A stretch of DNA of 64,000 bases from Cladocopium goreaui (lineage: Eukaryota > Sar > Dinophyceae > Suessiales > Symbiodiniaceae), in contig CAMXCT020001531.1 of NCBI GenBank assembly GCA_947184155.2, forward strand, positions 53,761 to 117,760. Direction: 5' to 3'. The translations under genes were made by a program, and so were the position numbers. A model generated the notes under the pieces. That model saw nothing but the letters and a program-made list of their open reading frames with translations, was not told where the DNA came from and did not search any database. This document shows, one piece after another, positions 18,073-50,439 of the stretch (within the stretch, counting starts at the first letter, position 1; the number at the start of each line of letters is the position of its first letter).

Positions 18073-18255
18073 CTCCAACAACCAATCCCACTATTGCGAA
18101 GGGTACCCCAGCTCCGCAGCCTAGGATCACCGCCACGGCCACCAGGATCCACTTCCCCCTCCACAAGCAGGAACCCCTTCTCGATGTCCTGCAGCCCAGC
18201 ACCAACTGCTGCTCCACAGCAGTGCGGCCACGGTTCACGGCACTGGATGAACCTG

Positions 18256-22245: not shown

Positions 22246-22569
22246 CTGGTTTTATTTACCCATATTCATCCAGATTATTATATGTACCCTTTGAATGAAA
22301 CACTGATGTTGGCAAGTAAAAACATGATACCAGGATCTGATTCATTCATAACACATGACTTCCATGCTCACGTCTCTTGCTCAGACGTCAGACCGTGAGG
22401 TTGCTAGATGCCCATCTAGTGGTGTTTTAACATCCTGATCCAACAAAGCTGTTGCCAAATACCCAAATAGCATCAATAAAAATCAATTGACTATAGTAAT
22501 TCCAGTATATCCGGAGATATCCGGAGTATATCCCAAGATATTCACATAGTCTGTTGATAAATATCCAGG

Positions 22570-22655
22570 TATCAGCAGATTGTTGCCTCCCGGCGCGCGA
22601 TCCCGGATTTTGTCGCGATCGACTGCAATGATCGCATGGATCTGACAGGCTTGAA
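22570..22655 (-). CDS. Possible exon, unknown protein
   Basis: Minus frame CQIHAIIAVDRDKIRDRAPG, then GNNLLIPG, is open and GC-rich; the ends are not resolved. It could be near the 5' end of the gene downstream of the ligase. Confidence 0.45.
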
Positions 22656-22777
22656 CAATTGATATCCATAAATTTTCTGCTGTTGATGTTGGCATCCAAC
22701 AAAAATAGTCCAAAAAAATCATCCATACATCTTGAACATCACCATTCACCATTCACGTTTTCAACATCCCAGGTTAC

Positions 22778-22862
22778 TATAGTTATTTGCGTACCATAAA
22801 CCATAGTTATTGGAGTTAACCAACTGAACGCTATTTTGGGGGCCTCACATTGTACTACAATA
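22778..22862. repeat. Hairpin family 5, partial copy
   Basis: Contains CCATAGTTATTGGAGTTAAC and ends in a variant of GGGGGCCCCACATTGTAC, matching one arm of the full copy at 26056-26180. It abuts the 3' end of the ligase gene. Confidence 0.7.
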
Positions 22863-22880
22863 TTAGACAATATCCAGCTC

Positions 22881-23048
22881 CTAGTCCTCCACATTGGAGA
22901 TCATCCACTCCGTCATGGCATCCAGGCTCTTCCTGGGCCCTTCCTCCACAAACTGCGGCCGCAGCTCCAGCAGCGCTTGGCGCATGCTGTGCCGCCCGTA
23001 GTCCCGGCCCTTCAGCGCATGCATGGCCTGCGTGATGACCTCAGCCCG
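22881..23048 (-). CDS. lplA: lplA exon 14 (C-terminus, stop)
   Basis: RAEVITQAMHALKGRDYGRH to MTEWMISNVED, TAG at 22881-22883. Matches the helical C-terminal end of LplA. The acceptor is TTCCTGGCAG; an alternative nine bases in (GCTGAG) would drop three residues. Confidence 0.9.
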   Translation of the reverse strand, partial: RAEVITQAMHALKGRDYGRHSMRQALLELRPQFVEEGPRKSLDAMTEWMISNVED

Positions 23049-26000
23049 CTGCCAGGAAAGGTGCCAGGAAAGGTGTGGTGTGTGATGACCAAGGCCAGAA
23101 ATGGGAGAAATGCTGCGAAAAAAAACATCAAAAAAGTGGGCAACTAGGAAAGCCAGCAGACATTTTCACACACATGTGGCAACGACATCGGGAACCCATC
23201 CACCAGTTGGCATCTCCTATTGCAATTTCAGGTCATCCAAATCTACCAGGTTTATCACCAGATACAACAAAACCATTGACATGATTATTTGATGACAAAA
23301 AACTGGATCAGACAACCCCAAATATCATTTGCTTGGTTACACCATATGTTACACATATTGACATCATATTGACATCATATTGACATCATATTGACATCAT
23401 ATTGACATCATATTGACATCATATTGACATCATATTGACCTCATATTGACATCATATTGACATCATATTGACATCATATTGACATATGGACAAGTCCATC
23501 AAATCCCACGTACCCAATTCATATCCGTCAAGCAACATCCGGAAAGAGCGCATCGGTAAAGATTGTGGCATCCTCAATGACCCCTTGCACCTCAGCGAAG
23601 CCAGTGCGGTTGCTGGTTGAATCAAGGGCTGCGACGGCTGGAGATTCCACAAATAGGGACTTTTTTCTACAAAAGAGAAGGAAAAAAAGCCTGAAACGGA
23701 TGGATTGGATGGATTTACGATGATCAAACATTGTGATAAAAAAGCCACAAACGATGTCTTTCATTTAGCAGAATGCCAACTACTGTACCGAAAAAAGGTT
23801 TGCCCAGAATTCTGGGTAAACATGATTTCACCAAAAGACATGGGCAACAAAAGATAAAGCCTGCGTCAAATTCAATGAAAGGAATTAGTGACTCGATTGG
23901 TGACAAAAATGGGTATGATGGCTTCAGTATGGAGGGCCGTATGGAACCCAGGGCTAATCTGAGATACTTTGCCAAAAAAAAAGGTGGTTCATACATCCCC
24001 ATCAACAAAGGATTAAGTTGCACCAAACTACTTCAATCGGCTCAGAAGCATGATGAAGCATGAAAGTTTCAGGGTCACCCCAAGCCACCACTGTTTTTTA
24101 TCTCCGGGACGTTGTGTTGATCTGCGACTCACACAGGATCGGACAGTGTAAATCGTGCGCATCTGCAACGGTCACTCTCCAGAGTTTAAGGATGACTTTG
24201 GCTGGTAGTCAATATTGAAAAACATTGGCAATGGCCAATATTGACTAACAAATTGCCATATATATTGAAACACATGGCAATATACTTCTGAGTTCCATCA
24301 TTCATATTTTCATATATTTTCTAACAGTATGGGGTCATACAATAAACATATTCCATTGATGGACTGCCATGGATTGTCAGGGCATTCATGGACTGTCTAG
24401 TCCATTAATATAATATATATACCTAGATAACAACTATAGATAGGAATATATATAGTATTACAGTACTATACATTGTAAGCACGTTTCATGAGCAATAAAT
24501 GTTCGATACTTATTCGATACTCACTCATCTATCTTCCAATATTAGATTCACAACACCTGGACCCAATGTTCTCAATGTCCAACGACTCCGCCGCAGAGCC
24601 CGCGGCACCACTTTCAGATGCACATCAAAGACGCCCACGCCGTCGATGCGCGTCTCGAATTGATGCGAGAATTCCGGGGTCTTTCCTCGGCAGTGCCAGG
24701 GTAACAAAAAACTCTGATAGTTCGACCCATCGAAAAACCCCAAAAAATAGATGGTTTTCACATCGAAATAGTGAATGGATTGGATTCCTAGAGGAGCAGA
24801 GTGTTTTAGGTGAGGCTGAAAATGGGGGACTGCCGATGGCAATTTAATTGGAAAATGATGGACAATGATGGTTGAATGAATTTGGGTATACCCTACCCTC
24901 AGACAAACCAGAGTGGGTATGGCGCAACCATATGAGTAAAACCCTTGGTTAATAGGTAGTAAGTGGATGTTCATCCCTAGAAAAAAAGGTCCCAAAGGTA
25001 CGGACGTATCCCCAAATATGAAACACAAAAATGCTGGAATTGAAGCTGGCACTACCAACATGTGTGCAAACCGGGAGCCCCAACCAAGTAGTATAATCCC
25101 CTATGACAATGAACACATGACCAACCTCAGATATGCCCTTGTTCGAAACCTGCCAGCCATTTCAAGCCATCCAAGCTGATGTGGCGTCTTTCAGGGCGTT
25201 GCATCCCAAAAAGTTTTCCCCATGTTGTTGAAACCCCTGCTGGCTGGAGGCGCAGCGCAAAGCTAAGACAGAACATCTCTGAAATAATGCCCCGATACCT
25301 CACAAGGTTAATATATTCACACCAAACTGGCAAAAAAAAATGAAATTTACCAAACTACCATTATTTCCCACTAATTCTGTCCAGTTAATTTTTCCAGATA
25401 CCCAATATGTCCTCATTATATCCCCAAAATATCCCATGATACCACCAGCATGGCTGGTTAAATTCCAATGTTTGATGGTTACTCCCACTATATTCCCATT
25501 CTATCACCATGATATATCATCATTGGATCACTATTTTCATCTCAAATCAAGTTGACTTGTTGGCTTACTTGGTTGTAACCCAATAAATATGCTCGTGTGA
25601 TTTAACATTGTGATGGAAAATCCTGGTCTTTAATAGCCAAATCATCTACAATGGGACATTTATACCATGGTGATTCGATGTAACAAATCAGCAGAGGGTG
25701 TCATAAGGGTATCACTGTATCACCATTAAAACAAATCATCGACTGTCATTTACCAAACATACCACCATTGTGTTGCATAAAAAAAAATGAATGATAGTGA
25801 AATCACCTTTATGGTGATAGCCCCTGTTTGAATATCAATATCCTTTTTTGCCTATCTCACCATCAAACCCAGTTTAAGTTTATATAAGTATAAACAATTT
25901 TCCCGTGGTTTGGTCGGCTAATCACCTGGTTTAGTTGGTTATATCATTGTTATCAGCATAATATCAGCATCATGTCACAAAAATTTCATCTCAGATGAGT

Positions 26001-29000
26001 TTCCGTGAATTACAGATGATGTTCCAGTTTTGTTGCTTGTATATCACCATGATGCTACAATGTGGGGCCCCCAAGATAGCTAAGTTGGTTTATAACTCCA
26101 ATAACTATGGTTTATGGTACTTACAACTATAGTTAATGGGGTTTATAAACCAACTTATAACTGGGGGGCCCCACATTGTACCATAATCTTAAGGGGTCTA
26201 TCCACGCAGTTGGCTTTGAACATCCGGAGTCCCGAGTGTCCCAATCGCCAGGACTTGTCGCTCAACTCAGCAACCAGCTCCTGCCGCCAGGCGACGTTGA
26301 GTGAAGCGTTCGTGATGGAAGATCATGGGCATATGATGGCATATGTGATGGACATATGGGCATGGATCAATACCTATTAATACCATTTCTAGGGGAATGA
26401 ACACCCATTTACCAGCTATTTTGATGTTCACCAGGGGTACAAGGTTTTGACACACTGCCATATAGCAAATATATGCAACTCGGTGTCGCCGTCATCGAGA
26501 CCCGTGGCAGGCGTCGAGGAGCCGAAGTGACATTGGCAACGCGAAAGACAAACGGGCATGGAAGGCACGTCCCTTTGCCATGTTCACTTCCCTCTCCGAT
26601 GTCAATCATCTTTACCTTCCCTTTGCGGGTCTTGTGTTGCTCCTTGACTTTCTGCTCCACAGATAGTTTCTTTTCGGCCTGGTGAATTTCAAGCAAAGAT
26701 AAATACGACGAAGACTTTGAAGAGGTGCCACAGCCCAAAGCCGATATAGCCCAAAGTGAGTAACTCAGAATCCTTAGTCTGCCAGAGCAAGTTCTGACAC
26801 TCGATCAACCACGCGCGCTCGCACAGTTCGAGCACGACGGGGTCAGACAGCGAAAGAACCAGTGCATCACCCCATTGCAGATGTTGCACCCATGGGACCT
26901 TGGTCATAGTGAGTTTTCCCAATAAAAATGGTGATTTTCCATAGTTATGTTAGTTTACCAGAGGGTATTCCAAATGCTGTTCTGACATGTGGCCAACCAG
27001 CATCTGACCTTCAGTACCTCATCAGGACATGACTTATTTTGGAGAACCAACCAAATCTAGCGAGATAAGGACAGGACAGTTTAGGAGGTAAAGGACCGAC
27101 ACGATTCGGACAATCCCAAGTGTGGGTGAGCAAAGTAAGACATTTACATGCCATGTTCATTGTTACACGTTTGTTGGATATGCACCCCATGGGAGACGTA
27201 GCAGCGCGTACATAAGCAGCGTAACATGAACGTTATTGCCCCACCCCACCCCAACCCCCACCCCATGCGTGACATAGCAGCTCATACATAAGCAGCGTAA
27301 CATGAACGTTATGCATAGCAGCACGTACATAACAGCGTAAATGAACGTTATTGCCCCTCTCCCACCCCACCCCAACCCCACCCCATGTGGTGACATAGCA
27401 GCACGTACATAAGCAGCGTAACATGAACGTTATTGCCTCACCCCACCCCAACCCCATCCCATGCGTGACATAGCAGCACGTACATAAAGCAGCGTAACAT
27501 GAACGTTATTGCATAGCAGCACGTACATAACAGCGTAACATGAACGCTATTGCCCCTCCCACCCCACCCCAACCCCCACCCATGTGTGACATAGCAGCAC
27601 GTACATAGCAGCGTGACATGAACGTTATTGCCCCACCCCAACCAACCCCAACCCCACCCCAAGCGTGACGTAGCAGCACCAACATAAGAAGTGTAACGTG
27701 AACTGTATTCCCCGAACCACAAGCCACACGCCACACCACATTGACATTTAAAAAAAAAAACAGCATAAAACAATGAAAACTGCATCAGGCAGTTAGGCAG
27801 TTGGTTGACGCAGTTATATTGGCTATATCCCCATGATTGGTGATTAAATCCTCATCCAATCATCCAACAGATCTGTTGTTAAATACCCAATGACAACTCT
27901 ATAATATATATATAATATACGGTAACGGTATATAACATTATACAACTACATTTAAATATACGGACTTTTAAATATACGAACAGGTACCTTAGACTGCCTC
28001 GGGAAGGTTTTCCTTGGCCTGCCCGGCCATTTCAACATACGGAATCCAATTTGTTTACACATACATTTAAAATATACGGATGGAACTGGTGTTTCATACT
28101 ATTTACGGCGCGTCGCGGTCTCGCCCGCCCTCCACATATTTAAATGTCGTTACCGTGTATATATTAACTAGTCTCAGAAAATATCCGTAGTATCTACAAG
28201 CATATCCCAACATATTGCCAATAAATCCCAACATCTTCCCATTCATTCCCCATGTTGGTCAAAACGTTAACATTTCTGTCGCTCCATCTCCGAAGCATGA
28301 TCAACACCCCCATTCTATGGTCCCAAATGTATTCCCTATGAAACCACAGTTTCTGGGTGGTGTTTAATATTAAGTACATATGTCTCATTAATAATAATAG
28401 TTGTAGGTGTTATAGAGTTATATCCCAACTTATGGAGGTTAGAATCCCATAAATTATACCCATTAATATCACCATTATTAGCGTGATGGGAAAGGGAGTA
28501 ATCCAATCTTCTCAAAAAATATTCACATGTCTTCACCAGTTTCCCATCAACACCTCCATCATTTACAGATTTTATAGGGGATGTCTCATCATGTTCTTCA
28601 TTTTCCCATCATTTGAAAAGAACTGATACAGTAGCCTGGTTGGTGGTTTCAACCATCTTGAAAAATATGAAAGTCAATGGGAAGGATTATCCCATATATT
28701 ATGGAAAAATAAAAATCATGTTCCAAACCACAAACCAGCTAGCCCTTTTCAGAGTGCCCCTCGGCTCCTGAAACGCTTCCGCTCGCGTCAGCTCGGACCT
28801 CTCCGTCACTTCCTCGAGAGGCTCTGTGGCCCCGTGGCGCTCGCGAAACTCCTGTGGCGCTCGGTGGGTTGGGGTGAAAAAAACTTCAGTTAAACATGTT
28901 TCGAAAAGGTAACAAAGGTTTTAAACATTTGAAACATTTTTTTTTGCAGGACCTATTGTGACTATAATCACTATAATATACTATATATAATATACCATAA

Positions 29001-32000
29001 TTATTCTGGGTAAAATATGTTGAAATGATGCTGTGTTTTTGGTGTTGAAATGTGTTAAGTACCAGCTAGATGGTTCAATATTGACCTATGCCGAAACCCA
29101 CTGTACTTCCCCATTGAAAATAAATTGCAAGGGCTAAGAATCGACCAATTAACCTGGTACCAATTCCTGATCATTCACCAAAAAAAAGAAGAAAAGTTGT
29201 TGGTTCTTGATCCATTTCAATTGGTGATGCCAAAAAATTGGGTTTCATATTATTTTTCCAGTGAATTAGTTGCTTCATCCCGGCCAAAGTCTTGACCCTT
29301 TCCCTTTCACAGCAGCCTCAATCAGCGCGTCACAGAGCTGCTGATGAGTCAACTTGGGAAAGCTTTCCTCGGCCCCGAACTCGCTGTCCGTTCTGGGAAA
29401 CCATCCCACGATCATGGGAAGTCCGTTTTGAACGGGAAGATCATGGGAAAATCACAGGAACAGATGGGAAAATCAACTATCAATGGAGGTTTCTAGCTGG
29501 GAAAATCATCGAACTAAATGGTAGATTTTTCAGCAGATCACGTTTGATATCTAGAGGGTAGCCCTGGTGATGGTAAGTCCCCGATCCGTGGATTCTCGCA
29601 CCTTTGTACATGGGGTCTGACTACAATGGTGATCCTAGCCACTTGCGATTTACCTGGGATGATCGCCCTTAGGTACTGCTGCAAATCCAGGCCGTCTACA
29701 ATCCAATTCCACGGTGGTTCATCTTTGCCAGGAATCCATCCAAAGATCATAGCATTTTTGGTGACTAGCCAAGTTGCTTGATCTTATAAGGATTTATGAG
29801 GTTTATAAGGGATAGCCCATTTTTGGGATTTTTGCTGACTACCCAACCCATCATAGCATTTTTTGCTTGGTAACTGCCCATTTTTGGTCAAAAGCTTCCA
29901 CCAACAGCCGAGCTTCTCGCAGGTTCATCACCCGCGCGCCCACACTGGCGATGCCTTTCGCTTGCAGTTTCCTCTTGTCCTCGTATTGGAGTGACCCTGG
30001 ACCCCAAGCAGGGTCTGGAAAGAGGGTACCCCTCAATTTGATGATTGGTCATGATTTCCCGATGAAAACATATTAAACGGGGAAAAAAAAAATGCAATGA
30101 CTTGGGTGTACGGTAAAAAGAAATGGAAATTGACTATTTCGAGACCACCAAGCAGTTTTCAGGATTCTCTTGTCAATGGGGGTGAAAAATCACCCGCAGA
30201 GGTATCGCAAGCTCTGCACATCAGCCACAAATGGCACAAGATGCTGCACCCTGTTGGAAGACATAGCAATGGACACGAAGACAGCTTGCATCCCAGTCAT
30301 CCCACACTTCGGGTTTTTGGCACAGCAAGTCGTCTCTGGGCGAAGGTCGCCGCTGGTCGGCTGTCAACTCTGCGCCTGTTTCTTGGAGATTGTAAGTGGT
30401 TTGTAACGCATGTAACATATATATATATAATATATATATAGCCCGGATGGACCCATCTATTATGACTCACATAGAATCCAGCCATGATGTATATATAAAG
30501 TATGTGTTTAATAAGACGATTGCTGCCCGCTTACTACACTTACTAACTGAAGAAATAGTTTTGCATGGAGATAATTGGAGTATGTTCTATTGCCAGGGGA
30601 TATTTTAAGGGGCAAGAATCCTTGACCAAAAAATCGACCCTGAAATCACTCGCGGCTCGGCAAGGTACTTTCGACCAAAAGCTTACAGGGTGGCCAGGGA
30701 TTCATTGCTCCTTGGGTATGGGCCAAAACAGTATCACCCAAGATTGGATAGTTTACTGGATTCTACTGCTTGGGGGTTGAGCCTACCCCTCTGAGAAATA
30801 TCAGTCAATGGGAAGGATTATCCCATATATTATGAAAAAGAAAAATGTTCCAAACCACCAACCAGAAAAGCAAGAAACCCCCTTGCAGAACATTGAATGG
30901 CCGATCCAAATCTCATCCATCTCTTGCGTCTGTTCAATTTAATCTGTCGGAGAAAATCTTCAGCTGTTTGATGGGCCAATTGCACATCTTTTCTGGTCAA
31001 ACCCCCCTATGTTGTTTGTTCCAGCTGAATCCTCATTGTTGTTGCGTATAAATAGCCTGTCACTTTTCATGATTTTCATGGATCTTCATATAATATATGT
31101 TCATAGATCCTCATAAATTTTCATATATTTTCATAGATTTTCAAGGTCAATCTGTGGTAGTCCACAACCCAAAAATATCACTGTTTGCTGTTGATCATCC
31201 ACTTGGTCAACGGTCAACTCGCCGGGGCTCCGGTGTCAGATACCGCTGCAGGGCCGTCAAATCCGTATCGATCCTAAGGATCGTGGTCGTTGGTGTATGG
31301 CTTGGTGTATTTGTTTATTCACAATAAGGAGAAAACCCATGGTTAATGTTGATATATGTTGATAATGGTTCATCATGGTAATCGAAATGAGCCATGTATA
31401 GATGAGCCATGTATAGATGATCACAATGATGATTTACCATGATTTACCGATTAAACATGGTGATTTTCCAGTTCGCGAGCTTAAATTTGTCAAAGGGTAA
31501 ATGGAGGGGGTGCGCATCAGGAAGGATCTCGAAGACTGTGTGAGGGTGATGTTCTCGATCAATGGGACGACTTGAATCGTTTTAAACGCAACATCTAACA
31601 AACTAAACAATAATTAGTGATGTTGAAATCGGATATAAACAATATATAAACAATATATGGATGATGTTGAAATGGGACATGCAGGTGAGATTTTTGAAAT
31701 TGGGGGCAAAGAATGTTGGAAGGTGATGCTCTGCAATTCCTAAACGGCTGGAAAATCTCCCCGGCTATATTTCGATGATTTTCCCAGCTAAGTTTACCTC
31801 CATTTGCAGAGCATTTTCCGAACCGTGTTTTATTACCCTAAATATCATATGTTTGGTTGTATATCCATTGTCTATCCACATGATATTCCCAAATTCTTGT
31901 TTTTCTTGAATAGATTACATCGCGATCGAAATCGATTTATCTATTAGTAATCACTATATTAACATATATTAACCCATATTAACATATATTAACATATATT

Positions 32001-35000
32001 AACCCATGCAACCCATTTTTGAACTCACCATTTTCTCAGACCGGGGTAAAAACGACCATGGTTTTCGACCATGTTAGACCCATGTGATTGACCCATTTGC
32101 TATGGAAAATAAGGATGTTTAATAGGGATAATAATGGCATAAATAATGATGAGATAATACTGGGATATTAATGGATGTACCCTCTGATGAACTAAGAGTT
32201 TGCGAACTGGAAAATCACCATGTTGAATAGCTAAATTAATTTTAAATCATCGAACTATAGCTGGTCCATGGCTTCCGGTTCGCTATGTGACAAATTACCA
32301 GAGGGTAGCCAGTTGTTTCAAACGCCATTTTTGAAAGCCGTGGTTCAATGGGACAATCTATCAATGGGAGAATGTTCCATTGCCATGTTTAATTGCCAGA
32401 GGGTCATTTGCCTGTGGCGGGAAAGTCACTGGTTTAACCAGATGGATGTGTCTGAACAAAAAGCGAGCAAAAATCTGAGGAAATCAATGATTATCATCAA
32501 AAGTGACCATCAATCGGAGTAAATTCCATTTCCACAACACACCCAAATAATCATTAAGTATATGTACAGTGTTTTTGTTGCTGGTTACATTCCACGATGT
32601 CCCCATAAAATGATGACCTACCCTGGCCTAGGTTTGCCGAAACGATCTCCCAAACGTCAGCAAGAAACAAGATGGTCCCGTGATGTAGTGACACCTGTCG
32701 GTCTGGCGCATGCTTGAAGGCGCTGCCGGAAATCTTCTTGTCCTCATGGGTGAGGTCCTTAAAGAGCTTCAAAAGTGCCAAAGATACCCTCTGGTTATGT
32801 CTAAATAGCTATTGAAAATGGCCATTTATAGTGGATTTTCCCATTAAAAATGGTGATTTTCCATAGTTATGTTAGTTTACCAGAGGGTATCCAATTTTTT
32901 GTGGTTCAGTGGGGTTTCAGAGTGAAAAAAGCAGGACCGACCCACCCCAAAGATATGTAAATTGTGAATTGTGATTCAATGGGGTTTAATGGGGTTTTCA
33001 CGGATAAGTAACCAACTTGATATGATATGTTGGGTTTGTTCGAAAATGGGGTACTGTATACCACCGAAACGTACGGTTTAATAGGGAAAATGGTGATTAA
33101 CCAGTAGATTAGGCGTATCCAGGGTATTCTATTTTCAGACCAACCCATGTGGAATTATGGTTCAAAGAAGTGCGTTTGTGTTTTGGGGGTACTCATCCAA
33201 AATGCATTTCGCTAAATGGTATGTACACGTAACTTGATGACCGTTTCAAAAGCAACAGTGAGGTCTGGACATATAAAAACAGCATAGATCTATATATATA
33301 ATGTCTACCCTGGATTAATACACCTTAAGGGTGATTTTCATTCGTGATTACCGCCTTTACTATTATTTTCATGTCATCTGCTGCCTTTTTTCTGATCTAA
33401 ATTGGTAGCCCAAATGATCGATCAACCACCCAGGGGCTTTGATTTCAATTTCTGATGACTGATTATTGCTGCCTGAACTTTCATAAAAATTCATTGATAT
33501 TCCCAGTTATATATATATATATGGAATGGATCCCAGCAAAAAAAAACCTTTCTTTTTCATGAAAACATTCCGAAGCCAAGGCTCCTATCCGGAGATCACC
33601 CCCCAAAATCCGGAGAGGTCCAGCAACATAAAACCTCCGGTTGAATAGTGTAGTTTAGATGGCTTTTATGAATCAGTTTATTGCAACCCACCAAATAATA
33701 CCAAAAAGATAGAAAAGTGAATTATCACTCTTTTAATGTGACGTTGTTTTTGCATCTTTTTGTGGGTTACCATGTTTAACCACCAATGCTTGCCTTGTGA
33801 AAACCAACCATTGTACCAAAAGAAGCCCAAATAGTTCTGGCTACTCTGGACCCTCTAGTTCACATCCAAAATAATGTTGCCAATAGAAACTTATATATGT
33901 AGTCGGGATCTTATCTATATAGTACCGACTACCAATGTTGCAGTTAGTTGGCAAAACATGTATTTAATTATCATATCCAATTATCCATGTTCATGCTCAA
34001 ACAAGTGCTAGACGACGGTCATAGCCATACCTCCGTTAATAGGTTATATGAACCGATACATGATACAATAATATGAGTTGCAAATATATCCAAGGAAATC
34101 CAAAACATCATCACTATACATGCCATTGTATCCCATGATATATATATATATATCATGATATCCATTGTATATCTATATATCCATGAGAGATCTCATGGGG
34201 CTATATATAATATAGTGAATATAAAATATCCCGTTATTATCCCATTATTACCTCCTCCTCCTCCGCCTCCTCCTCATCATCATCATTATCATCGTCATCG
34301 TCATCGTCATCCTCATCATCATCATCATCATCATCATCATATCACTATCTATATCATTATCTATATATTCTATACCCATATCCATATGCATATCTATATC
34401 TATGTATATATCTATATCATTATCTATATCTATATCTATGCATATATCTATATCTATATCATTATCTATATCTATATCTATGCATATATCTATATCTATA
34501 TCATTATCTATATCTATATCTGTATCATTCTCTATAATCTATATCATTATCTATAATCTATATATGTCATGATAATCCAATCTATATATCGATCCAAGCA
34601 TCGTTGCGCCCTTTCTTCTCTGCCTCGATCCCCAAGCGCCGCAGGGCACCCAGCACAGTGTCCAGGTTGCGGTCGATGTGGAAGTCCTGGTTGGGACGCC
34701 GCCACGGGGATGAGAAAAGGCTCCTGGGGATGGGAAAACCATAGGAAAACCATAGGAAAACCATAGGAAAATGGTGGTTAATAGTAATTAATAGTGGTTA
34801 ATGATGGTTAATCATTGGTTAATTATGGCTGGTTGGATGTATATTAAAGAAATACAGTATATAATCCAATAATTACTGATGATCAATGTGTCATACATGA
34901 TGTATATATATATATATGTCTATGATGATGATCTGGTTGGTGGTATATCTACCCCTCTGAAAAATGTGAAAGTCCAGTTGGGATGATGACATTCCCAATA

Positions 35001-38000
35001 TATGGAAAGTCATAAAATTCATGTTCCAAGCTATAGTACTATATCAACCAGAAAAGATGAGTGTGGAGTCACAGTGATTTAAGGGAATCGAAATATGGAT
35101 ATTCATGTAGCTAAACTCAATGTCATAAAAAAAAGACTCCCCCAAGTCATCATCATGTTTGGCTGGGATTCCAACCATCCCCAGTCATGGTAGTAACTTT
35201 ATCTGGTTGGTGGTATACCTACCCCTCTGAAAAATATGACTTCGTCAGTTGGGATGATTATTCCAAAAATATGGGAAAATAAGAAATGTTCCAAACCACC
35301 AACCAGTTATTATATGCTTGCCCACATTACTAGGCATGACGCCCTGGGATTGTAACAGATTTTGACCAAGAACCACAAGGATTGTGGCGCTAATAAATCC
35401 TGGCGAGTCAGATGACCAAACATTGGATTTCATGAGGAACAAAAGCATAGAAAAGCATAGTGAAAAAAATCAGGGGTTGCTGACAAAAAAACGCGGGTTA
35501 ATCATGGATAACACCCACAAATGTTTGGAAGAAAAAGCCGAAAAAAAAAAGGCTGTTGACCAACAGTGAATGGAACTTAACCAACCACAGATCACACATG
35601 TCCCATGGCAAGCAATAGAAATGGAAGGTAAATTATATAGTGAAGGTGACATTTATATACATTTACCCTCTGGTTATTTAACATAGCCATGGGAAATGGC
35701 CCATTTATAGATGGTTTACCTATTCAAAATGGTGATTTTCCATGGCTATGTTAGTCATACAGTAACCAGATGGTATATAGATACATTTCTTGGCTATCGT
35801 CAATTAATCAACCACTTGGAAATCAACACCACACCAGAGTCGTCGAGGCACAGAAGAAGGGAAGATGAAGGTAAAAACGCTACCTTGGGCGAAGACACTT
35901 CGCAGGGATATCATGGGATATCTAGGGATATCTAGTGCGAAACTGCGGTCAATACAGGTTTCAGTCTTGCTGTGCTTAATAGTGGCTTAATGGATCATAA
36001 TTGTGATGGCATTGCCCTCCGGCAATCATTCATGGCTGGGGAATAGATGAAGGGGTTTAATGGGAAAAATGGTCGAACTATGTACGAGGAGTCCTGGGAT
36101 GTTCCGAAACGCAGAAAATCGAACTATAGCTGGGCCATGGCTTCCATAGCTCTGTTGAATTTCCGAAGGGCAGTCGTATGGTTTAGGATATGCCGATTGC
36201 TGGCTCTATGATAACCTCAGAATTTTTTCCGAGATGCTGGGATCTTGACCGGCCACAGTGATTCTTTAGATGTGTGGCTGTGTGGCTACATCATTCTATC
36301 GCTGTTGACCATATCCCATCTTGGATGCTTAGTAAAACTACCTTCTGGTATAATTGAACGTAGCTATGGAAAATCACCATTATTTCTTTTTTGGTACAGT
36401 AAATCAACTATTTCAACTGGGCCATGTTCAAGTTCGCAAACTGTTCGTTTACCCGAGGCCCCAGCACCAAAAAAAACCGGCTGGGGATGGCCAAAAAATC
36501 CCCTGATGGATCGATCCTGGCTCATATTCCCTGTACATCCAATGGAAATATATAGCCGACATCTTACTTTAGCAACTTTAGCCGACATCCAATAGACTCA
36601 TTGCCCTGTGCCAATCAAACATTTTGAAAATTCCACTTTTATGGAGGATTGTTCCATTTTTCAGTGCCAATTTGGGGATGGGTCAATTCAAATCTCTTAT
36701 TGTCTGTTGGGGATTTTAGCATCCATTCCCCAGGCTTTTGACTCTTAGCATCTCTTTGCTGTTTACCCTCTGGTTATTTAACACCGCCATGGAAAATAGC
36801 CCATTGAAATAGATGATGTTCCCAGCTAGAAACCTCCATTTATTTCAGGGATTTTCCAGTTCGCTATGTTAAATCACCAGATAGTACCATCTGGTTATTT
36901 AACATAGTGACATAGCCATGGAAAGATCCACCATTTTTCATAGGTAATGGGCCATTGTCAATAGCTATGTTAGTCATAACCAGATGGTCGTTTTTGGATT
37001 TCCCGGCTCCGCTTGCCGTGTTTGATGACACCAGAGGGTAGACCCCATTTTTTCCAGGTCGATCCTTTCCGAAATCGCTGGGTTTACCCAGTCGCAAAGT
37101 CAGTGACATCTTTGAGGTTCATAAATGTTTATGGTTGAACCCCAAATGGTATACCCTCTGGTGAACTAACATAGCAATGGAAAATGGCCATTTATAGTGG
37201 ATTTTCCCATGAAAAATGGTGATTTTCCATTGCTATGTTAGTTCACCAGAGGGTACGCTATCTCACATGTTTTTTTCTGCTGAACTTCCCATGTTAGCCC
37301 CTTGATGGCTTGAAACCCGAGGGTAGCTCTGTGAGTTGAGTTCACCACTGGCACTGGCCAAGTCAGGGTGATACCATATGGATTTTGTTGGCTATATCCC
37401 ATAGAAAACTACCCTTTGGTAAACATACAAAAAACTATGGAAAATCACCATTTTTTAATGGGAAAATCAACTATGAATGGCTATTTTCAATAGCTATGTT
37501 AAATTACCAGAGGGTATATCCCATAGAAAAATAAGTCTCATCATATTCTCATAGAGTATTAATTCACCAAAATTAAATATTAATGATGGTTATATTTCGA
37601 TGGAATATCATATTCCCATTGTGCGGGGTAATCGAATCTACTCGCTTATATACCATCTTATCAGCAACTATGTTGATTTACATCCCCCTCTCTTAACCCA
37701 ACGACATCCCAACATCTCATATGGTTTGAGTTAAAAACTTCACTTTAGAAAAACAACCAATGAAAAACAAGCAATACATGGCAAGTCTTGGATGCCCTGC
37801 AAAATATATAAAGATCCTTCAGTTGCTTCCTATATTCTCTGGATATACCAGGAATTTAACATAGCTATTGAAACTCATGTCAAAAATAGGTATATCAACT
37901 ATAAATCCACCATTTTCAATCGCAAACTGTTCGCCTACCAGAGGCTATCTGGATGATTCGAACCAGGCCCACCCCCACCTTATCCACCTTCGAACCCGGC

Positions 38001-40887
38001 GGCATCCCGCGTCCTGAAACACGGCACCACCTCCCGACCTCCGCCGCACCAGCGCCACGCCATCCTCCTCCAGGCGGGAAAGGACACACTCCTGGCGCGC
38101 TGCAAGGGCTCCAGAGGTGGCTACAAGGTGTCCCTTGAAATGTGATGGTTGTTGATAGCCCCCAGAAAACTGGTGATTGATGATTCATCATGCTTAATGA
38201 TGATTAATCATGGTTCATAATGGTTCATTATGATGGGATATTTGATATTAATAGTGGCTAATAGTGGTTAATGATGGTTAATCATTGGTTAATTATGGCT
38301 GGTTGGTGGTATACCTACCCCTCTGAAAAATATGAAAGTCCAGTTGGGATGATGAAATTCCCAATATATGGAAAAATAAAATTCATGTTCCAAACCACCA
38401 ACCAGTATAGATATGTGTGTGTGATATCTGAGTGATATATGTTATATAAACCCTATAGTTCTTGATATAACCTATATGGGATACAAAAAAAAAACGATTT
38501 ATACTTGTTGGATCATGCGGTTATAACTCCAGCCATGAAATATAACTAGTCACTGAGTGGGATGATCCTCCAAGTAAGTCACTTTCCTGTAAGCTGGTGC
38601 CTCAGCTCGTTAGCTAAGTTGCTGAGACGGAGCAACAAGTCGGAGAAATTGGGTTTGAACATGATGTACCCACCAAAATATGGATTCACCATGCGGCATA
38701 TTTTCAAGATCAATAATTGAGGCATAACTGTTTAACCATAAACAATTGAATTTCAGTTTTTGCGAGTTAAATGCATTATGATAACAAAATCACGTGTTTG
38801 GCGGGTAGCCTTTCGGACTTGCATTGCTAGTCTCAGACGCCCTTCATTTTTGTTACACCGTGTTTGAAGAGTAGGTGGTAGCAATCACCAGCCTTTAGAA
38901 AGAAACATCTATAGGGCCGCTAACACCTACCGTTCACCAAACGGTTGATTCAGAGATCACGAAACCGGTATCTACACTCCCAATGTTATCGAAGATGACC
39001 AACACATCAATTGAAATTGAAGCAGTTGTCCATGTTCTATATACTTTGACTTTGAATATAACTATATTCATAAATCATCATAAATCACTATAGGTTCACA
39101 TTGCTCGTGCATCCCAAAGCTTGAAGGCCTAAAAAAACCTCTCCTTCCAAGGATTTTGATGTCGTCCAATGGTCACCACAGGCTGCGGTCGCCACAGATA
39201 CATCAGAGGCGCACGGATTTTGGCGAAGTTCATCCTGGGCTGCGGACACTGCGACTTCCCACTTTCGCCAGCCAAGATGGGGATATCAGTGGCCATTTCA
39301 GGTACCGATAAAAGTTGAAGCTACCAGAATAAGAGGTCTATGTCAAGGCTATGTAAGGTGATTTGCCCCTGAAATATGGCTTTCTATATCTTTATATGGT
39401 ACCTCCATTTTAGGGTCAAAATTCCTATTGACCATTGGGTGTATAATTGGTATATTTTTAAGGATGTAATGGGGATCAGCACCCCGCACAGCCCGTTGAG
39501 CGTGTTCACTGTTGAAACCCTGCACGTCACCATTCATGAGCCGTCATAGATTTAAAACCGCCAAAATTTTAGAAAACAAAGAAAACGCAAACGCTATTGC
39601 TGTGGTAGCAAAACTTTAATGAAGCCCCAATAAGCCCATGTTATTGGGGGGATCATCTTTAAGGGGGGGTGGTTGAACCCTATGATACAACATTTTTGAT
39701 CTTCAATACATAGATGGAAACATCTTGGAACCCTGAACATATCTATATGGCTCTATATGGTGGCATATTTACCTACATCACCGAGTCATTCTTGGGTGGT
39801 AAATTTTGCTTACAAAAACCATACATTGGTCGCATTTGTGATGGGATCAATATGACCACTGGACCAAAAACCATTGATTCACACACTGAAAATTCACAGG
39901 AGCTGCATGACAAGAAACAGGAAACTGGGGAGTGAATCCAAAAGATGCCATGGGACAAAGCCACTGGATTTGGGGAAGCAAGGTTACTCCAGGCCGGCCA
40001 GAGGTTATACTAACTTGTGGGTATAAGCATGGTTATAAACCCCCATGTTTGTTGGGATATAACCCATATAGCTATGGTATACTATGGTACTATACTGTGT
40101 CCACTTATAACTGGATGTGCACTTCCAAGTAGGCCTTTTGTTTTTTTTAACCCTCCGGTAATTTGTGACATAGCTACGGTATAGAAGGCCCATTTAGTTC
40201 GATGATTTACCCATTAGTTTTATTTGGCGATTGTCCATGGCTATCAGTTTTGTGAAGAAGGTCACATATCCGGATTTATGTAATATGATATGAATGACCG
40301 TCATGATTTATATAATAAGATTTATGTTTATAATATCACGTATATATATATAATTATATAAAATCAAATAAGATATAAATATAATAAGGCCATTTGGGGA
40401 TGATGTCCCTATATAATATACACTGTCACCACAGTGACGTCACGACTTGAGGTCATGATTTTTTGTTTTGTGTCATGTCATAACCCTCCGAACTTCGAAC
40501 CATCAAATCACGGCCCCAAAACATCCTGGTTGGTGGTGCAAAAACCATCTTGAAAAATAGGAGTTCGTCAATGGGGTTGGGATGACATCCCATATATGAA
40601 ATGGACAATAAAATTCATGTTCCAAACCACCAACCAGATATTGTCATTAAGCATTATTAACCACTATTAACCACTATTTTTATGTCCCAACCAGCTCTAA
40701 AACATAGTTTCATAACAAGCCTCAAATATTCCTCCACCGCGAAGTGGAAGATGATGTCCGGCACATCGGATTTCAAGATCCGCGCTCCCGTGCTCCAGCG
40801 ACGCGCCGAAGCGGACGCGCGCGCGCCAGAGACGCCGGAGACGCGCCGCCATTGCGCGGTCGCACGCAAGAAGGCCATGGTCGACAT
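22881..40887 (-). CDS. lplA: Lipoate-protein ligase A gene (14 exons), mitochondrial
   Basis: Ligates free lipoate, via lipoyl-AMP, to lysines of 2-oxoacid dehydrogenase E2 and glycine-cleavage H proteins. Fourteen minus-strand exons were joined by homology to the bacterial LplA family and by frame: 1,125 nt, 374 codons plus TAG. Residues 1-40 have many Arg and no acidic residue, a likely mitochondrial presequence. The catalytic domain follows: HFAVEEYLR; LWRPQPVVTIGRHQNPWK (68-86); lipoate-binding RRRSGGGAVF (102-111); GRND (155-158); KKISGSAFK with the conserved Lys166; HHGTIL; LQAKGIASVGARVMNL; then the C-terminal domain (SWRLGKTPEFSH, IFTDALFP). Length after the presequence equals E. coli LplA. 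Thirteen introns use GA (6), GT (4) and GC (3) donors, all with AG acceptors. About 94% of the span is intron, filled with hairpin repeats. An ATG 30 nt upstream (40917) is an alternative start. Confidence 0.93.
23353..23483. repeat. 13-bp tandem repeat in intron 13
   Basis: Unit ATATTGACATCAT repeated about ten times almost exactly, with one CTC variant. Confidence 0.95.
23540..23590 (-). CDS. lplA: lplA exon 13
   Basis: VQGVIEDATIFTDALFP, matching the family segment around VFTDSLNP. GA donor (CCG|GATGTT), acceptor GCTGAG. The frame happens to stay open upstream to a good TTTTGTAG site at 23667, an alternative acceptor that would add 25 codons. Confidence 0.85.
24612..24685 (-). CDS. lplA: lplA exon 12
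   Basis: KTPEFSHQFETRIDGVGVFD then VHLK, matching FGQAPAFSH...GGVELHFDV of E. coli LplA. Acceptor CCGAG|GA; donor AAA|GTGGTG. Confidence 0.9.
25130..25290 (-). CDS. Open coding-like segment inside lplA intron 11
   Basis: Minus frame AGVSTTWGKLFGMQRPERRH, then ISLDGLKWLAGFEQ, is open but fits nowhere in LplA. It could be a nested gene fragment, an alternative exon or chance. Confidence 0.3.
25598..25701. repeat. Hairpin family 1, degenerate copy
   Basis: GTGATTTAACATTGTGATGG to AAATCAGCAGAGGGTG keeps the family layout with many changes; an old copy. Confidence 0.5.
26056..26180. repeat. Hairpin family 5 copy (intact)
   Basis: Ends TACAATGTGGGGCCCCCA and GGGGCCCCACATTGTA; the arms pair over most of 125 bp. 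Lies in lplA intron 11, 60 bp from exon 11. Confidence 0.85.
26241..26280 (-). CDS. lplA: lplA exon 11 (40 nt)
   Basis: ELVAELSDKSWRL plus one base. With exon 12 it gives SWRLGKTPEFSH, matching SWEWNFGQAPAFSH. The join needs a GA donor (TTGG|GACACT), and the phase then fits exactly. Confidence 0.85.
26343..26463 (-). repeat. Dispersed repeat family 7, copy 2
   Basis: GGCAGTGTGTCAAAACCTTG on the minus strand followed by the same GGTGAACATCAAAATAGCTG block as at 10200-10315. Confidence 0.85.
26470..26900 (-). CDS. Coding-like segments inside lplA intron 10
   Basis: Two minus frames with coding character overlap end to end: 26690-26900 (GDALVLSLSDPVVLELCERA, then LIECQNLLWQTKDSELLTL) and 26470-26700 (AEKKLSVEQKVKEQHKTRKG, then KVKMIDIGEGSEHGKG). 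An intron or a frameshift would be needed to join them. Neither matches LplA. A nested gene, a retrogene fragment or alternative exons are possible. Confidence 0.4.
26907..26967. repeat. Hairpin family 1, right half
   Basis: Only the centre and right arm remain (GTGATTTTCCATAGTTATGT to TTTACCAGAGGGTA). Confidence 0.8.
27188..27716. repeat. Irregular tandem array with C-rich spacers
   Basis: A conserved 40-bp block (AGCAGCACGTACATAAGCAG plus CGTAACATGAACGTTATTGC) recurs about eight times, alternating with CCCCACCCCACCCCAACCCC spacers of varying length. On the minus strand the spacers are GGGGTGGGG runs that could form G-quadruplexes. Lies in lplA intron 10. Confidence 0.9.
28636..28738. repeat. 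Hairpin family 2 copy
   Basis: CTGGTTGGTGGTTTCAACCA to CCAAACCACAAACCAG. Lies 44 bp inside intron 10 from the exon 10 donor. TAGC occurs on both sides. Confidence 0.9.
28783..28848 (-). CDS. lplA: lplA exon 10
   Basis: FRERHGATEPLEEVTERSEL then TR: the variable linker before the SWxxG segment, with the expected length. GC donor (CGA|GCGGAA) and GAG acceptor. The frame is open on both sides, so the ends could shift. Confidence 0.75.
29311..29367 (-). CDS. lplA: lplA exon 9
   Basis: ESFPKLTHQQLCDALIEAA, matching LLPGITHEQVCEAITEA of E. coli LplA residue for residue in length. GT donor (GCT|GTGAAA), acceptor CCGAG|GAAAGC. Confidence 0.88.
29654..29722 (-). CDS. Coding-like segment inside lplA intron 8
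   Basis: Minus frame EPPWNWIVDGLDLQQYLRAI then IPG, with an AG acceptor and a clean GT donor (CCCAG|GTAAAT). It has no counterpart in LplA. It may be an alternative exon or a relic. Confidence 0.4.
29917..29979 (-). CDS. lplA: lplA exon 8
   Basis: DKRKLQAKGIASVGARVMNL then R, matching KKKLAAKGITSVRSRVTNL. GA donor (CGA|GAAGCT), acceptor ACGAG|GACAAG. Confidence 0.93.
30221..30388 (-). CDS. Coding-like segment inside lplA intron 7
   Basis: Minus frame ETGAELTADQRRPSPRDDLL, then VWDDWDASCLRVHCYVFQQG, ending in TGA at 30221-30223, with a CTCCAAG acceptor at 30389. It does not match LplA. A nested or relic coding piece. Confidence 0.4.
   Translation of the reverse strand, partial: LQETGAELTADQRRPSPRDDLLCQKPEVWDDWDASCLRVHCYVFQQGAASCAICG
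30766..30865. repeat. Hairpin family 2 copy
   Basis: CTGCTTGGGGGTTGAGCCTA to CCAAACCACCAACCAG. Confidence 0.85.
31231..31273 (-). CDS. lplA: lplA exon 7 (43 nt)
   Basis: IDTDLTALQRYLTP, matching NADLSRLANYLNP. GA donor (CCG|GAGCCC), acceptor CCTTAG|GATC. Confidence 0.9.
31429..32177. other. Intron 6 sequence with decayed hairpin elements
   Basis: Family 1-like remnants near 31429-31500 and a related hairpin at 31723-31825 (ends ATGCTCTGCA and TGCAGAGCAT). An AACATATATT run lies at 31965-32000. No exon assigned. Confidence 0.5.
32178..32307. repeat. Hairpin family 1 copy, divergent centre
   Basis: TACCCTCTGATGAACTAAGA to AAATTACCAGAGGGTA. The TTTGCGAAC/GTTCGC blocks near each end pair with each other. 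Confidence 0.8.
32669..32757 (-). CDS. lplA: lplA exon 6 (catalytic lysine)
   Basis: DLTHEDKKISGSAFKHAPDR to SLHHGTI plus two bases. Holds the KxSGSA motif (Lys166) and HHGT. GT donor (CATCTT|GTTTCT); with exon 7 it gives HHGTILLIDTDL. Acceptor TTTAAG|GACC. Confidence 0.95.
32785..32889. repeat. Hairpin family 1 copy (intact), next to exon 6
   Basis: TACCCTCTGGTTATGTCTAA to TTTACCAGAGGGTA. Its edge is 27 bp from the exon 6 acceptor, so it occupies the 3' end of intron 5. Confidence 0.9.
33031..33148. repeat. Hairpin family 3 copy
   Basis: TGGGTTTGTTCGAAAATGGG to TATTTTCAGACCAACCCA, diverged from 8081-8190. Confidence 0.8.
34240..34560. repeat. Trinucleotide and TATCTA microsatellites
   Basis: CTC/CAT runs pass into TATCTATATC repeats. 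It sits inside intron 5, ending 40 bp from exon 5. Confidence 0.95.
34600..34686 (-). CDS. lplA: lplA exon 5
   Basis: DFHIDRNLDTVLGALRRLGI to AEKKGRND, 29 residues, matching EYDKTIS...LGVSAEASGRND. GC donor (GAT|GCTTGG), acceptor CCAACCAG|GACT. Confidence 0.95.
34933..35051. repeat. Hairpin family 2 copy with insertion
   Basis: CTGGTTGGTGGTATATCTAC to ATATCAACCAG; CTATAGTACTATAT interrupts the right arm. The flank at 34733-34835 carries the CCATAGGAAAA/GGTTAAT module. Confidence 0.85.
35203..35306. repeat. Hairpin family 2 copy (intact)
   Basis: CTGGTTGGTGGTATACCTAC to CCAAACCACCAACCAG, flanked on both sides by TTAT. Confidence 0.9.
35664..35775. repeat. Hairpin family 1 copy
   Basis: TACCCTCTGGTTATTTAACA to AACCAGATGGTA; both arms use the CATAGCCATGG block. 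Confidence 0.88.
36339..36458. repeat. Hairpin family 1, divergent copy
   Basis: TACCTTCTGGTATAATTGAA to GTTCGTTTACCCGAGG; family blocks are recognisable but the ends are changed. A related remnant lies at 36105-36175. Confidence 0.65.
36764..36886. repeat. Hairpin family 1 copy
   Basis: TACCCTCTGGTTATTTAACA to AAATCACCAGATAGTA; CCCAGCTAGAAACCTCCAT centre variant. It shares its last bases with the next copy. Confidence 0.82.
36885..36988. repeat. Hairpin family 1 copy, abutting the previous one
   Basis: TACCATCTGGTTATTTAACA to CATAACCAGATGGT. Directly followed (36990-37039) by another right-arm remnant ending CACCAGAGGGTA, suggesting insertion of one copy into another. Confidence 0.82.
37077..37109 (-). 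CDS. lplA: lplA exon 4 (33-nt microexon)
   Basis: MSLTLRLGKPS, filling exactly the gap between RRRSGGG and DFHIDRN (family: FTFMAGKP). GA donor (AGC|GATTTC), acceptor TCAAAG|ATG, phase 0 at both ends. Hairpin copies lie on both sides. Confidence 0.8.
37152..37255. repeat. Hairpin family 1 copy with perfect arms
   Basis: The outer 34 bp of each arm are exact complements, including two blocks that differ from other copies (GGTGAAC and ATAGCAATGG). It starts 43 bp from exon 4. Confidence 0.93.
37410..37516. repeat. Hairpin family 1 copy with 14-bp flanking duplication
   Basis: TACCCTTTGGTAAACATACA to AAATTACCAGAGGGTA. TATCCCATAGAAAA stands on both sides, a likely target duplication. Confidence 0.88.
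37846..37946. repeat. Hairpin family 1, variant ends
   Basis: TACCAGGAATTTAACATAGC to GCCTACCAGAGGCTA. Ends 50 bp from exon 3. Confidence 0.7.
37996..38091 (-). CDS. lplA: lplA exon 3 (lipoate-binding loop)
   Basis: ECVLSRLEEDGVALVRRRSG then GGAVFQDAGCRR. RRxSGGGxV is the family hallmark. The next motif, normally HDLGN, reads QDAGC. The donor is uncertain: GT (CGG|GTTCGA, used here), GC five codons earlier or GA (GCGG|GATGCC). Acceptor CGCCAG|GAGTGT. Confidence 0.88.
38299..38405. repeat. Hairpin family 2 copy (intact)
   Basis: CTGGTTGGTGGTATACCTAC to CCAAACCACCAACCAG; GGTTAAT words on the left flank (38215-38298). Confidence 0.9.
39144..39234 (-). CDS. lplA: lplA exon 2
   Basis: MNFAKIRAPLMYLWRPQPVV then TIGRHQNPWK, matching [22 protein letters not shown] in spaced alignment. 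GA donor (AAG|GAGAGG), acceptor GCCCAG|G. Confidence 0.95.
40149..40260. repeat. Hairpin family 1, degenerate copy
   Basis: AACCCTCCGGTAATTTGTGA and a loosely paired right part; old copy in intron 1. Confidence 0.5.
40526..40637. repeat. Hairpin family 2 copy
   Basis: CTGGTTGGTGGTGCAAAAAC to CCAAACCACCAACCAG, in lplA intron 1, 83 bp from exon 1. ATTAACC words follow. Confidence 0.9.
40721..40887 (-). CDS. lplA: lplA exon 1 (start, presequence)
   Basis: MSTMAFLRATAQWRRVSGVS opens an Arg/Ala/Ser-rich leader with no acid before Asp41; then RILKSDVPDIIFHFAVEEYL, matching RLLISDSYDPWFNLAVEE. GC donor (TTGAG|GCTTGT): the leftover AG plus the first G of exon 2 makes Arg. A plus-strand frame over the same bases is open but matches nothing. 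Confidence 0.9.
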
Positions 40888-41113
40888 GGCACAGTTGGAA
40901 CCCCCGAAAAAAATCATGTGGGATGCAGGTGATCGTCATGGTCACCATTTGTTCATTGGAGTTTGGGAGGATCATTGATCATCTTTATAGATTCCAGAGT
41001 GGGATCTAATACAGATTTTTTATGATTTTTTATGATATATAGCCCAACAAAAAAGGGCCAAGAAACTTATCTAAGACACTCAAATATGTCTGGGCCTTTT
41101 GAGCAAGAGAATG

Positions 41114-41295
41114 TCAGGCCGCTGACGTCTGTGTCCGTGTCTTCTTCAACATGTATTTAGGCAATGTTGAGACACCTTCTGTGAATGATGTCGCGTTCTT
41201 CTGTTGCTGCTCCCTTTTGATCTCAACATGGTCGATTGGAACATGGAGTCGAAAGCTGCCTTTCAGTCGGGCGGAAGTTGTCCAAGTTGCCGGTG
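41114..41295 (-). CDS. Terminal exon of the gene upstream of lplA
   Basis: Minus frame to a TGA at 41114-41116: SARLKGSFRLHVPIDHVEIK, then NATSFTEGVSTLPKYMLKKT. It has a good pyrimidine-rich acceptor (TTTTCGACAG) at 41296. The stop lies about 200-230 bp before the lplA start, so the two genes are tandem on the same strand, as usual for dinoflagellate arrays processed by trans-splicing. Family not recognised. Confidence 0.65.
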
Positions 41296-42095
41296 CTGTC
41301 GAAAACAGGCTGACAGGAGGAAAGCACCAGAAACATCCAAAAACTGCTTCTGTTTTTCCACCTTTGGTCACCCTTATCAATGCAACTGAGCCATGAAAAT
41401 ACCCCTATCCTAATGAAATACTGGCTGGTCTGGTTCATAAGTATCCCTATGGCCCAAGAAGCCACAAAAATAGCCTCCCTATTTCGAAAAACCCATCGAC
41501 AGGGCAAGCCTTTCCTTATGATTCAATTGGCTATGGATGTTATGGCCATCCTGTCACATTACCAAGTATATCACCAGTTTTGATACTTAAAACTTAAAAC
41601 CGTTTAGTAAATGATGGTGTCAAATTCCAGGTATCCATAGGTATCCAACCACGAAACTGAGTGGTTAATTGCTGCTGAAAAATATCCCAATAAAATTATC
41701 CTTATGCTATCCGTATTTCATCGTATTTCTGTATAATTATGTAATTAACTAACCAACAAAATTGTCACAAACACCACTTTTGATTCCGTCCAGACTCCGA
41801 ACAAAAATGATCATTGAATCCTTCCCACTAGTAAAGCAAAAGGATCGTTCCCATTCTTTATGGGTGGACTTTTAACCGTCAATTTATATGGATTGGATGG
41901 TTTATGACATTGGTGTAAATCACCATTGTTGCTGGTTAAATCACCCTATATCTTGATGGTTAAACTCCTATGAAAAATTTGAACTAATCATCAATCCTGT
42001 TACAGTCACTATAATCCTGTTGTGTCCATTATTATCATGTCGTATTCATTCTGATCCCTATTACTATCCATCATAACCCCTTATTGGAATCCCAC

Positions 42096-49051: not shown

Positions 49052-49108
49052 CACTCGTATTCCAATGCTACAAATGTGTTATATATATATAATTTTCCCC
49101 TTGAATGG
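49052..49108 (-). repeat. 57-bp block A, copy 1
   Basis: GGCCATTCAAGGGGAAAATT to CATTGGAATACGAG on the minus strand; the same block is at 52496-52553. Here it directly follows the OTU fragment on the minus strand. Confidence 0.9.
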
Positions 49109-49306
49109 CCTGATCAACTCCTTTGTCTGAGGAAAATGCCAAAGCGACAAATTGGCAGTTGCCGTCCCCTATGGTATCACAGCGCACCAAACCCAACTCG
49201 CGCAGCCGCTCGTTGACTGCCTCTTGGTTCCTTTCAAGCAGTGTCTTGGCCTGTGGTTTCTCTTGCAAAGAAATGTCGGCTGCCAGCACCTTGGTCGGGT
49301 GTAAGG
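49109..49306 (-). pseudogene. Truncated OTU protease copy
   Basis: Repeats the first 59 codons of the ORF at 49434-50162 nearly exactly, including GDGNCQFVALAF, then breaks off at GTTGATCA, where block A begins. The His half of the catalytic site is missing, so it is a dead duplicate. Confidence 0.8.
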
Positions 49307-49337
49307 AGCAGGTACGACACCGTTGGGAGTTCTTCGC

Positions 49338-50162: not shown

Positions 50163-50439
50163 CTCGGTCTTCGGGTGTAGAATAGTTTTTTATTTTTTTT
50201 GCCTCAGGTTTTGTGTATGGATTTTTGTTTTCTTTCCCGGTACCATTTGCCTTGTATTTGCAACAGTTTGGAACTAGAACCTGTCATTTTGCATGATATT
50301 TGCTACATTTTGGCATGGTCACTTTGCATTTTGCATGGTATTTGCTACATTTGGCAATGTTTGCCATCCATTTTGCATAGTATTTATCATATTTTGGCAT
50401 TTCAACCTCTCATTTGCATGGTATTTGCTACATTTTGGT

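Follow-up and report, generated by a model that had tools for sequence, protein, structure and literature searches.

The minus strand of Cladocopium goreaui contig CAMXCT020001531.1 carries, between positions 40887 and 22881 of the window (the whole 64,000-nucleotide stretch of DNA analyzed here), 14 short coding islands that together spell out a full lipoate-protein ligase (LplA). We conclude that these islands almost certainly constitute a working nuclear gene with an intact frame of 372 codons in 14 exons, encoding an LplA of the E. coli two-domain type that is predicted to be imported into the mitochondrion. The frame that agrees with an independent database protein, P0001, measures 1119 nt (372 codons plus stop) and is assembled from exons of 32–164 nt, with no stop or frameshift inside any of the 14 exons. 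Introns make up 93.8% of the span, close to the ~94% given in a first-pass annotation of this DNA, whose span and count of 14 exons also hold; its exon sizes of 33–168 nt do not. Nor does its length of 374 codons plus stop, the same as in our first hand join of 14 exons (1125 nt), as alignment to P0001 revealed two joins that were each one codon too long, with a surplus Arg at the exon 1/2 boundary and a surplus Ala at exon 9/10. The ends of exon 1 and exon 9 were corrected from P0001 to 40724 and 29317, respectively. The equality in length to E. coli LplA after removal of the presequence, also put forward in that annotation, is not meaningful.

Table 1 Coding exons of the LplA gene and repeat elements in its introns, in window coordinates.
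Feature	Position	Strand	Description
Exon 1	40724..40887	-	164 nt coding; presequence and start of core; donor GA
Exon 2	39144..39234	-	91 nt; LMYLWRPQPVVTIGRHQNPWK; donor GA
Exon 3	38004..38091	-	88 nt; RRRSGGGAVFQD motif; donor GC
Exon 4	35852..35883	-	32 nt; SVFTFIFPSS; donor GT
Exon 5	34603..34686	-	84 nt; KKGRN at its end; donor GA
Exon 6	32669..32757	-	89 nt; DKKISGSAFKH with presumed catalytic lysine K161, and LHHGT; donor GT
Exon 7	31231..31273	-	43 nt; IDTDLTALQRYLTP; donor GA
Exon 8	29917..29979	-	63 nt; DKRKLQAKGIASVGARVMNLR; donor GA
Exon 9	29317..29367	-	51 nt; donor GC; end corrected from P0001
Exon 10	28768..28851	-	84 nt; donor GA
Exon 11	26241..26280	-	40 nt; donor GA
Exon 12	24609..24685	-	77 nt; C-terminal accessory domain begins; donor GT
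Exon 13	23537..23590	-	54 nt; donor GT
Exon 14	22881..23039	-	159 nt; stop codon TAG included
Palindromic MITE-like element	37152..37255		Intron 3; ~104 nt, two 49-nt arms, 90% complementary
Second MITE-like repeat family	38299..38405		Intron 2; ends CTGGTTGGTGGT / ACCACCAACCAG

A tblastn search of the window with LplA from E. coli MG1655 gave six top matches (E 8e-07 to 0.019), all of them minus-strand, collinear with the protein, and located from 39.2 down to 29.3 kb. Three weaker matches (E 2–4.4; at 40.8, 31.3, and 24.7 kb) also fit the gene, and taken alone are at noise level. Spliced alignment of the same protein to the minus strand of 22500–41500 scored 202.9, versus 34.4–61.5 in 15 controls, which comprised the other strand, both strands of 42–61 kb, the retrotransposon end, six block-shuffled sequences, one reversed protein, and four shuffled proteins. 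Guided by this distant E. coli protein, the alignment yielded 16 exons, of which some in the C-terminal half were small and false. Assembly of the motifs by chance is ruled out by these 15 controls and by P0001.

P0001 emerged from a protein database search that returned 2166 proteins below E 0.001 among 7998 scored candidates. Among the best 120 of the 2166, which we examined, it is the top match to the window protein: 371 residues, 98% identical, with a longest contig of 1139 nt and a source label, lgn, that we take to denote the Logan assemblies. P0001 follows the model without interruption from residue 24 to the last residue, through all 13 junctions, with a single substitution (V351L); in the presequence, it differs from the window by three substitutions and one gap. 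When the boundaries were shifted by up to 12 nt each way, exactly one G[TCA]-AG/G choice gave a P0001-matching protein at each of the 13 junctions, and no shift in that range turned any of the nine non-GT junctions into a GT-AG intron. Because an independent protein is unbroken through all 13 junctions, we regard the joins as real. Splicing of these exons to other coding segments, the outcome that the first-pass annotation had set against its own model, was not seen: P0001 has an MSTMAFL start and the same last residue as the window protein.

Most likely, P0001 is the product of a spliced mRNA. We read it so because a six-frame, intron-blind search of the 1.166-Gb assembly with profile PF21948 gave no intronless dinoflagellate-like copy of LplA among its matches, all three of which are unbroken frames on contig C1. 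The one locus of the three inspected, L004, is bacterial-like, with a GC content of 57.5% over the first 2000 bases and dense ORFs, and from these features contig C1 (>4.4 Mb) looks like the chromosome of an associated bacterium. This contig carries intronless frames of the LplA/LipB family at L002, L003, L004, and L007, and it also holds the only match to the LipB family in the assembly, which falls below the cut-off. Should P0001 instead be an intronless genomic retrocopy, it would not directly document that the window gene is spliced today. Dinoflagellates are described as undergoing rampant retroposition (PMC11453091), and the source contig of P0001 is only ~1.1 kb; yet the PF21948 search found no such copy, the splicing pattern would be preserved in a retrocopy too, and the relatives with unbroken frames include some with transcript-style labels (eukprot TRINITY, GFBE, and mmetsp). 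We consider a retrocopy improbable and retain the reading of P0001 as a spliced mRNA product, which may stem from another strain or a paralogue, given the presequence differences and V351L.

By its sequence, the protein is a complete LplA, as the first-pass annotation had claimed, and lipoate ligase activity is predicted for it. The profile search it proposed as a check matched the LplA family above curated cut-offs: in the 374-residue join, the catalytic LplA domain PF21948 scored 187.6 bits (cut-off 27; 3.4e-55), the C-terminal accessory domain PF10437 scored 51.8 bits (cut-off 24; 7.8e-14), and the equivalog TIGR00545 passed narrowly at 283.9 bits (cut-off 280). The window protein also passes the cut-off of PF03099. 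Its best solved relatives are E. coli LplA (PDB 1x2g and 4tvw), followed by Plasmodium falciparum LipL1; further bacterial enzymes and the bovine enzyme rank after these. The match of 1x2g to the first join is collinear over residues 35–370 (4.6e-67). Two motifs, DKKISGSAF and RRRSGGGAVF, are present in the window protein. The lysine of KxSGSA, presumably the catalytic lysine by analogy to E. coli LplA, is K161 of the 372-residue model and does not vary in either of two alignments, of 15 and of 34 rows, counting the row of the window or of P0001.

E. coli LplA (b4386; PDB 1x2g) shares with the window protein the two-domain architecture, the KxSGSA lysine, the RRxSGGGAVF motif, and the fold, whereas the window gene adds an N-terminal presequence of ~35 residues and 13 introns. 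For P0001, AlphaFold gives a model with a mean pLDDT of 89.2 and values below 50 confined to residues 1–30. The closest fold match to this model is again E. coli LplA (3.9e-35), whose 1x2g chains are 38–39% identical to P0001 in the fold alignment. The model departs from the three 1x2g chains by an rmsd of 15.3–15.5 and from 4tvw, a structure with a bound adenylate analogue, by 5.9; such a contrast would be expected if mainly the inter-domain angle differs. The domains of E. coli LplA rotate relative to each other. P. falciparum LipL1 (PDB 5t8u), an alveolate lipoate ligase of the same superfamily, matches at 1.3e-49 by sequence and 1.4e-31 by fold, with 30–31% identity to P0001 in the fold alignment. 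Bovine lipoyltransferase 1 (LIPT1, PDB 2e5a), a mitochondrial member of the superfamily, matches at 2.1e-35. LIPT1 transfers lipoate but is not known to activate it; in contrast, the window protein scores above the cut-off of the LplA equivalog TIGR00545. Among the papers listed in searches of an open-licence library, none dealt with a dinoflagellate LplA, judging by title or abstract opening.

The presequence places 35 residues ahead of the core, six of them Arg or Lys and none Asp or Glu; the presequences of 13 relatives have zero or one Asp/Glu each, that of P0046 being shortened by the motif used. Three in-frame ATGs, at 40917, 40887, and 40878, are candidate starts for exon 1. The 372-codon frame counts from 40887, and P0002 and P0003 start at the residue matching 40878. 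The Arg-rich, acid-free composition points to a predicted mitochondrial import signal. LplA enzymes adenylate lipoate at the expense of ATP and then transfer it to a lysine of a lipoyl domain. In the pathway that we propose, a long pre-mRNA would be cis-spliced by a dinoflagellate spliceosome that accepts GA and GC donors and would probably receive a spliced leader by trans-splicing. The presequence would direct the enzyme into the mitochondrion, where it would adenylate free lipoate (or octanoate) with ATP and move lipoate to the lysine of lipoyl domains in 2-oxoacid dehydrogenase E2 subunits and the glycine-cleavage H protein.

We built a tree of 115 rows from the window protein, E. coli LplA, and 113 of the best 120 proteins, dropping seven that were too short or broken models. 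The window protein pairs with P0001 (support 97) and then with P0002 (100), within a 12-row clade (98) that includes P0003 and Polarella P0045. The first ~200 residues of P0003 are, by eye, almost like the Symbiodinium models P0070 and P0073. These affinities mark the source as a dinoflagellate of Suessiales type, probably one of the Symbiodiniaceae. A single, deeply divided clade (99) takes in 69 of the 115 rows, most of them unnamed but with named dinoflagellates among them. This clade bears on the possibility that LplA was recently acquired from a bacterium and gained its introns later, which we judge very unlikely. Proteins named Psychrobacter, among the best 120 of 2166, are 43–47% identical to the window protein, whose best match of solved structure is E. 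coli LplA. Against a recent acquisition stand the deep splits of the 69-row clade and a genome-contig scan led by P0082, a member of a neighboring group, which kept 80 of 128 loci, largely Psychrobacter and Spirochaetes, at 35–50% identity and contained no close bacterial relative. We accordingly reject a recent bacterial transfer; any bacterial transfer of LplA would be old. Hardly credible is a decaying pseudogene with the expressed LplA gene elsewhere in the genome: the presequence and one further residue do differ between P0001 and the window, but the 14 exons have no stop or frameshift, every junction has a valid G[TCA]-AG/G pair, P0001 residues 23–371 show only one difference from the window, and PF21948 detects no other copy (in a search that would miss intron-split copies, as it does here).

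The intact 14-exon gene is invisible to that search: the contig of the window is absent from the PF21948 matches in the six-frame assembly search, and an intron-blind domain search thus misses LplA. Gene models in relatives fare no better. Among the best 120 of 2166 proteins, all four relatives that look genome-derived, judging from their labels or the lengths of their contigs, prove broken once BLASTP maps them onto the exons. The Polarella model P0045 has neither exon 1 nor the end of exon 14, the alignment of P0070 (Symbiodinium CCMP2456, labeled 'partial') stops at exon 9, and P0076 (eukprot, g24084.t1) is missing exons 4 and 7 along with portions of other exons. P0073 (S. necroappetens, 640 residues) aligns to exons 2–9 and continues with more than 450 unaligned residues, in which a piece like exons 10–11 is discernible by eye. 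The Amphidinium protein P0046 is a nearly complete LplA. The six-frame miss and the four broken models support the earlier claim that this gene would escape standard gene finders or be broken up by them. The window offers a gene model checked at 13 junctions by an independent unbroken protein, for an enzyme whose public genome models from Polarella and Symbiodinium, so far as they were mapped, are cut short, overlong, or missing exons; it illustrates how surveys of dinoflagellate genomes can wrongly call a metabolic gene absent or broken.

The 13 introns range from 465 to 2487 nt, with a mean of 1299 and a median of 1251. All 13 acceptors read AG/G, and the donors are GA in seven introns, GT in four, and GC in two, so that 9 of 13 (69%) are non-GT. 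The GC content is 65% in the first 10 nt of the introns and 67% in the last 10 nt, versus 40% in introns overall and 60% in exons. In the last 20 nt before the 13 acceptors, there is no clear pyrimidine tract (48–54%). Dinoflagellate intron architecture and introners are the subject of a review (PMC11453091), and the donor types are familiar from the group. The same GA, GC, and GT donors and AGG acceptors occur in introns of Symbiodinium, Polarella, and Prorocentrum. Symbiodinium minutum uses GC and GA donors beside GT, with a G following the acceptor AG (PMC4083563), and in two Symbiodiniaceae, GC or GA donors account for 52% and 74% of the introns (PMC7789003). In the tabulated data of PMC10666404, P. 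glacialis, S. natans, D. trenchii, and C. proliferum have 10.6–16.2 introns per gene, mean exons of 99–120 nt, mean introns of 486–1408 nt, mean genes of 8.8–16.2 kb, donors that are 24–37% GT, 44–58% GC, and 17–20% GA, and 96–97% AGG acceptors. Because these averages are published for Polarella and Symbiodiniaceae alike, the LplA gene is ordinary, with a normal dinoflagellate architecture at the long-intron end. The tiny exons and 94% intron content, presented as remarkable in the first-pass annotation, lie near the group average in Table 2 of that source.

The proportions of donors differ more. For this comparison, we used the donor tables of P. cordatum, P. glacialis, S. natans, D. trenchii, and C. 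proliferum, leaving out two of the seven tabulated columns, Amphidinium gibbosum (GA 0.1%) and Amoebophrya ceratii (GT 99.9%) (PMC10666404, tables). The non-GT share of 69% falls within the 63–76% of these five genomes. Within this share, the window gene has GA in 7 of 13 donors and GC in 2 of 13, as against 17–24% GA and 44–58% GC in the five genomes (PMC10666404, tables). Relative to the five tables, the probability of at least seven GA donors is 0.003–0.019 and that of at most two GC donors is 0.002–0.034, values that are uncorrected and set one gene against the genomes of other species. The exon following a GA donor starts with GA in seven of seven cases, compared with three of six after other donors (Fisher P 0.07). 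GA-rich donors, each ahead of a GA-starting exon, may be the sole oddity of the LplA gene, and their pairing is a simple prediction for dinoflagellate RNA-seq sets.

Exact repeats at the intron borders sum to 38 nt over the 13 introns, where permuted pairings average 31.5 (P 0.018, or 0.010 for the right side alone), and reach at least 3 nt in 7 of 13. These border repeats hint weakly at target-site duplications. Introner elements are characterized, according to PMC10666404, by direct repeats of 3–5 nt near both intron ends and inverted repeats of 8–20 nt within 30 bases of each end. No exact inverted repeat of at least 8 nt was found between the ends of any of the 13 introns, at 30 or 60 bases, and inverted-repeat sums at the ends are no higher than in permuted pairs (P 0.29 and 0.79). 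We rejected the introns as introner elements, as all 13 lack the inverted repeats and two palindromic families occur inside the introns and outside the gene alike. A tentative and rather unlikely suggestion is that GA-AG introns in this genome go back to ancient insertions, each of which doubled a short (AG)GA target; the GA donor would then be a second copy of the first bases of the exon and not a weakened GT, and the spliceosome would find the site by the AG/GA repeat and not by a fixed GT. The lack of inverted repeats at the intron ends counts against this suggestion.

The introns also house dispersed repeats. The palindrome family represented in intron 3 has ends TACCCTCTGGT/ACCAGAGGGTA, with more copies at about 21405, 26906, 32783, 36762, and 42874. 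It is dispersed in the assembly, with 971 candidates and 40 scored places at 89% identity or more, the window's own included. Whole or partial copies of the second MITE-like family lie in introns 1, 2, 4, 7, and 10, as well as outside the gene. No copy of either family coincides with a splice site. Two repeat copies come within 30 nt of one: a copy starting at 32777–32783, near the acceptor of intron 5 (32758), and a copy at 28708–28738, near the donor of intron 10 (28767). An ORF in intron 10 (26409–26804) was rejected as a nested gene, having no Pfam match at E 0.01.

Elsewhere in the window, the minus strand holds an open 2105-codon frame of a Copia-type retrotransposon at 11773–18090 (RVT_2, PF07727, 1.2e-07), with a GC content of 53–56% compared with 41% for the window. 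Also on the minus strand, a frame for an OTU-like cysteine protease extends over 49434–50189 (PF02338, 1.4e-10), and ~60 of its residues recur in a second frame just downstream, at 49068–49412, as in a partial tandem duplication. Between 5156 and 6127, a 94-nt unit is repeated 10 times head-to-tail, the copies being 99% alike.
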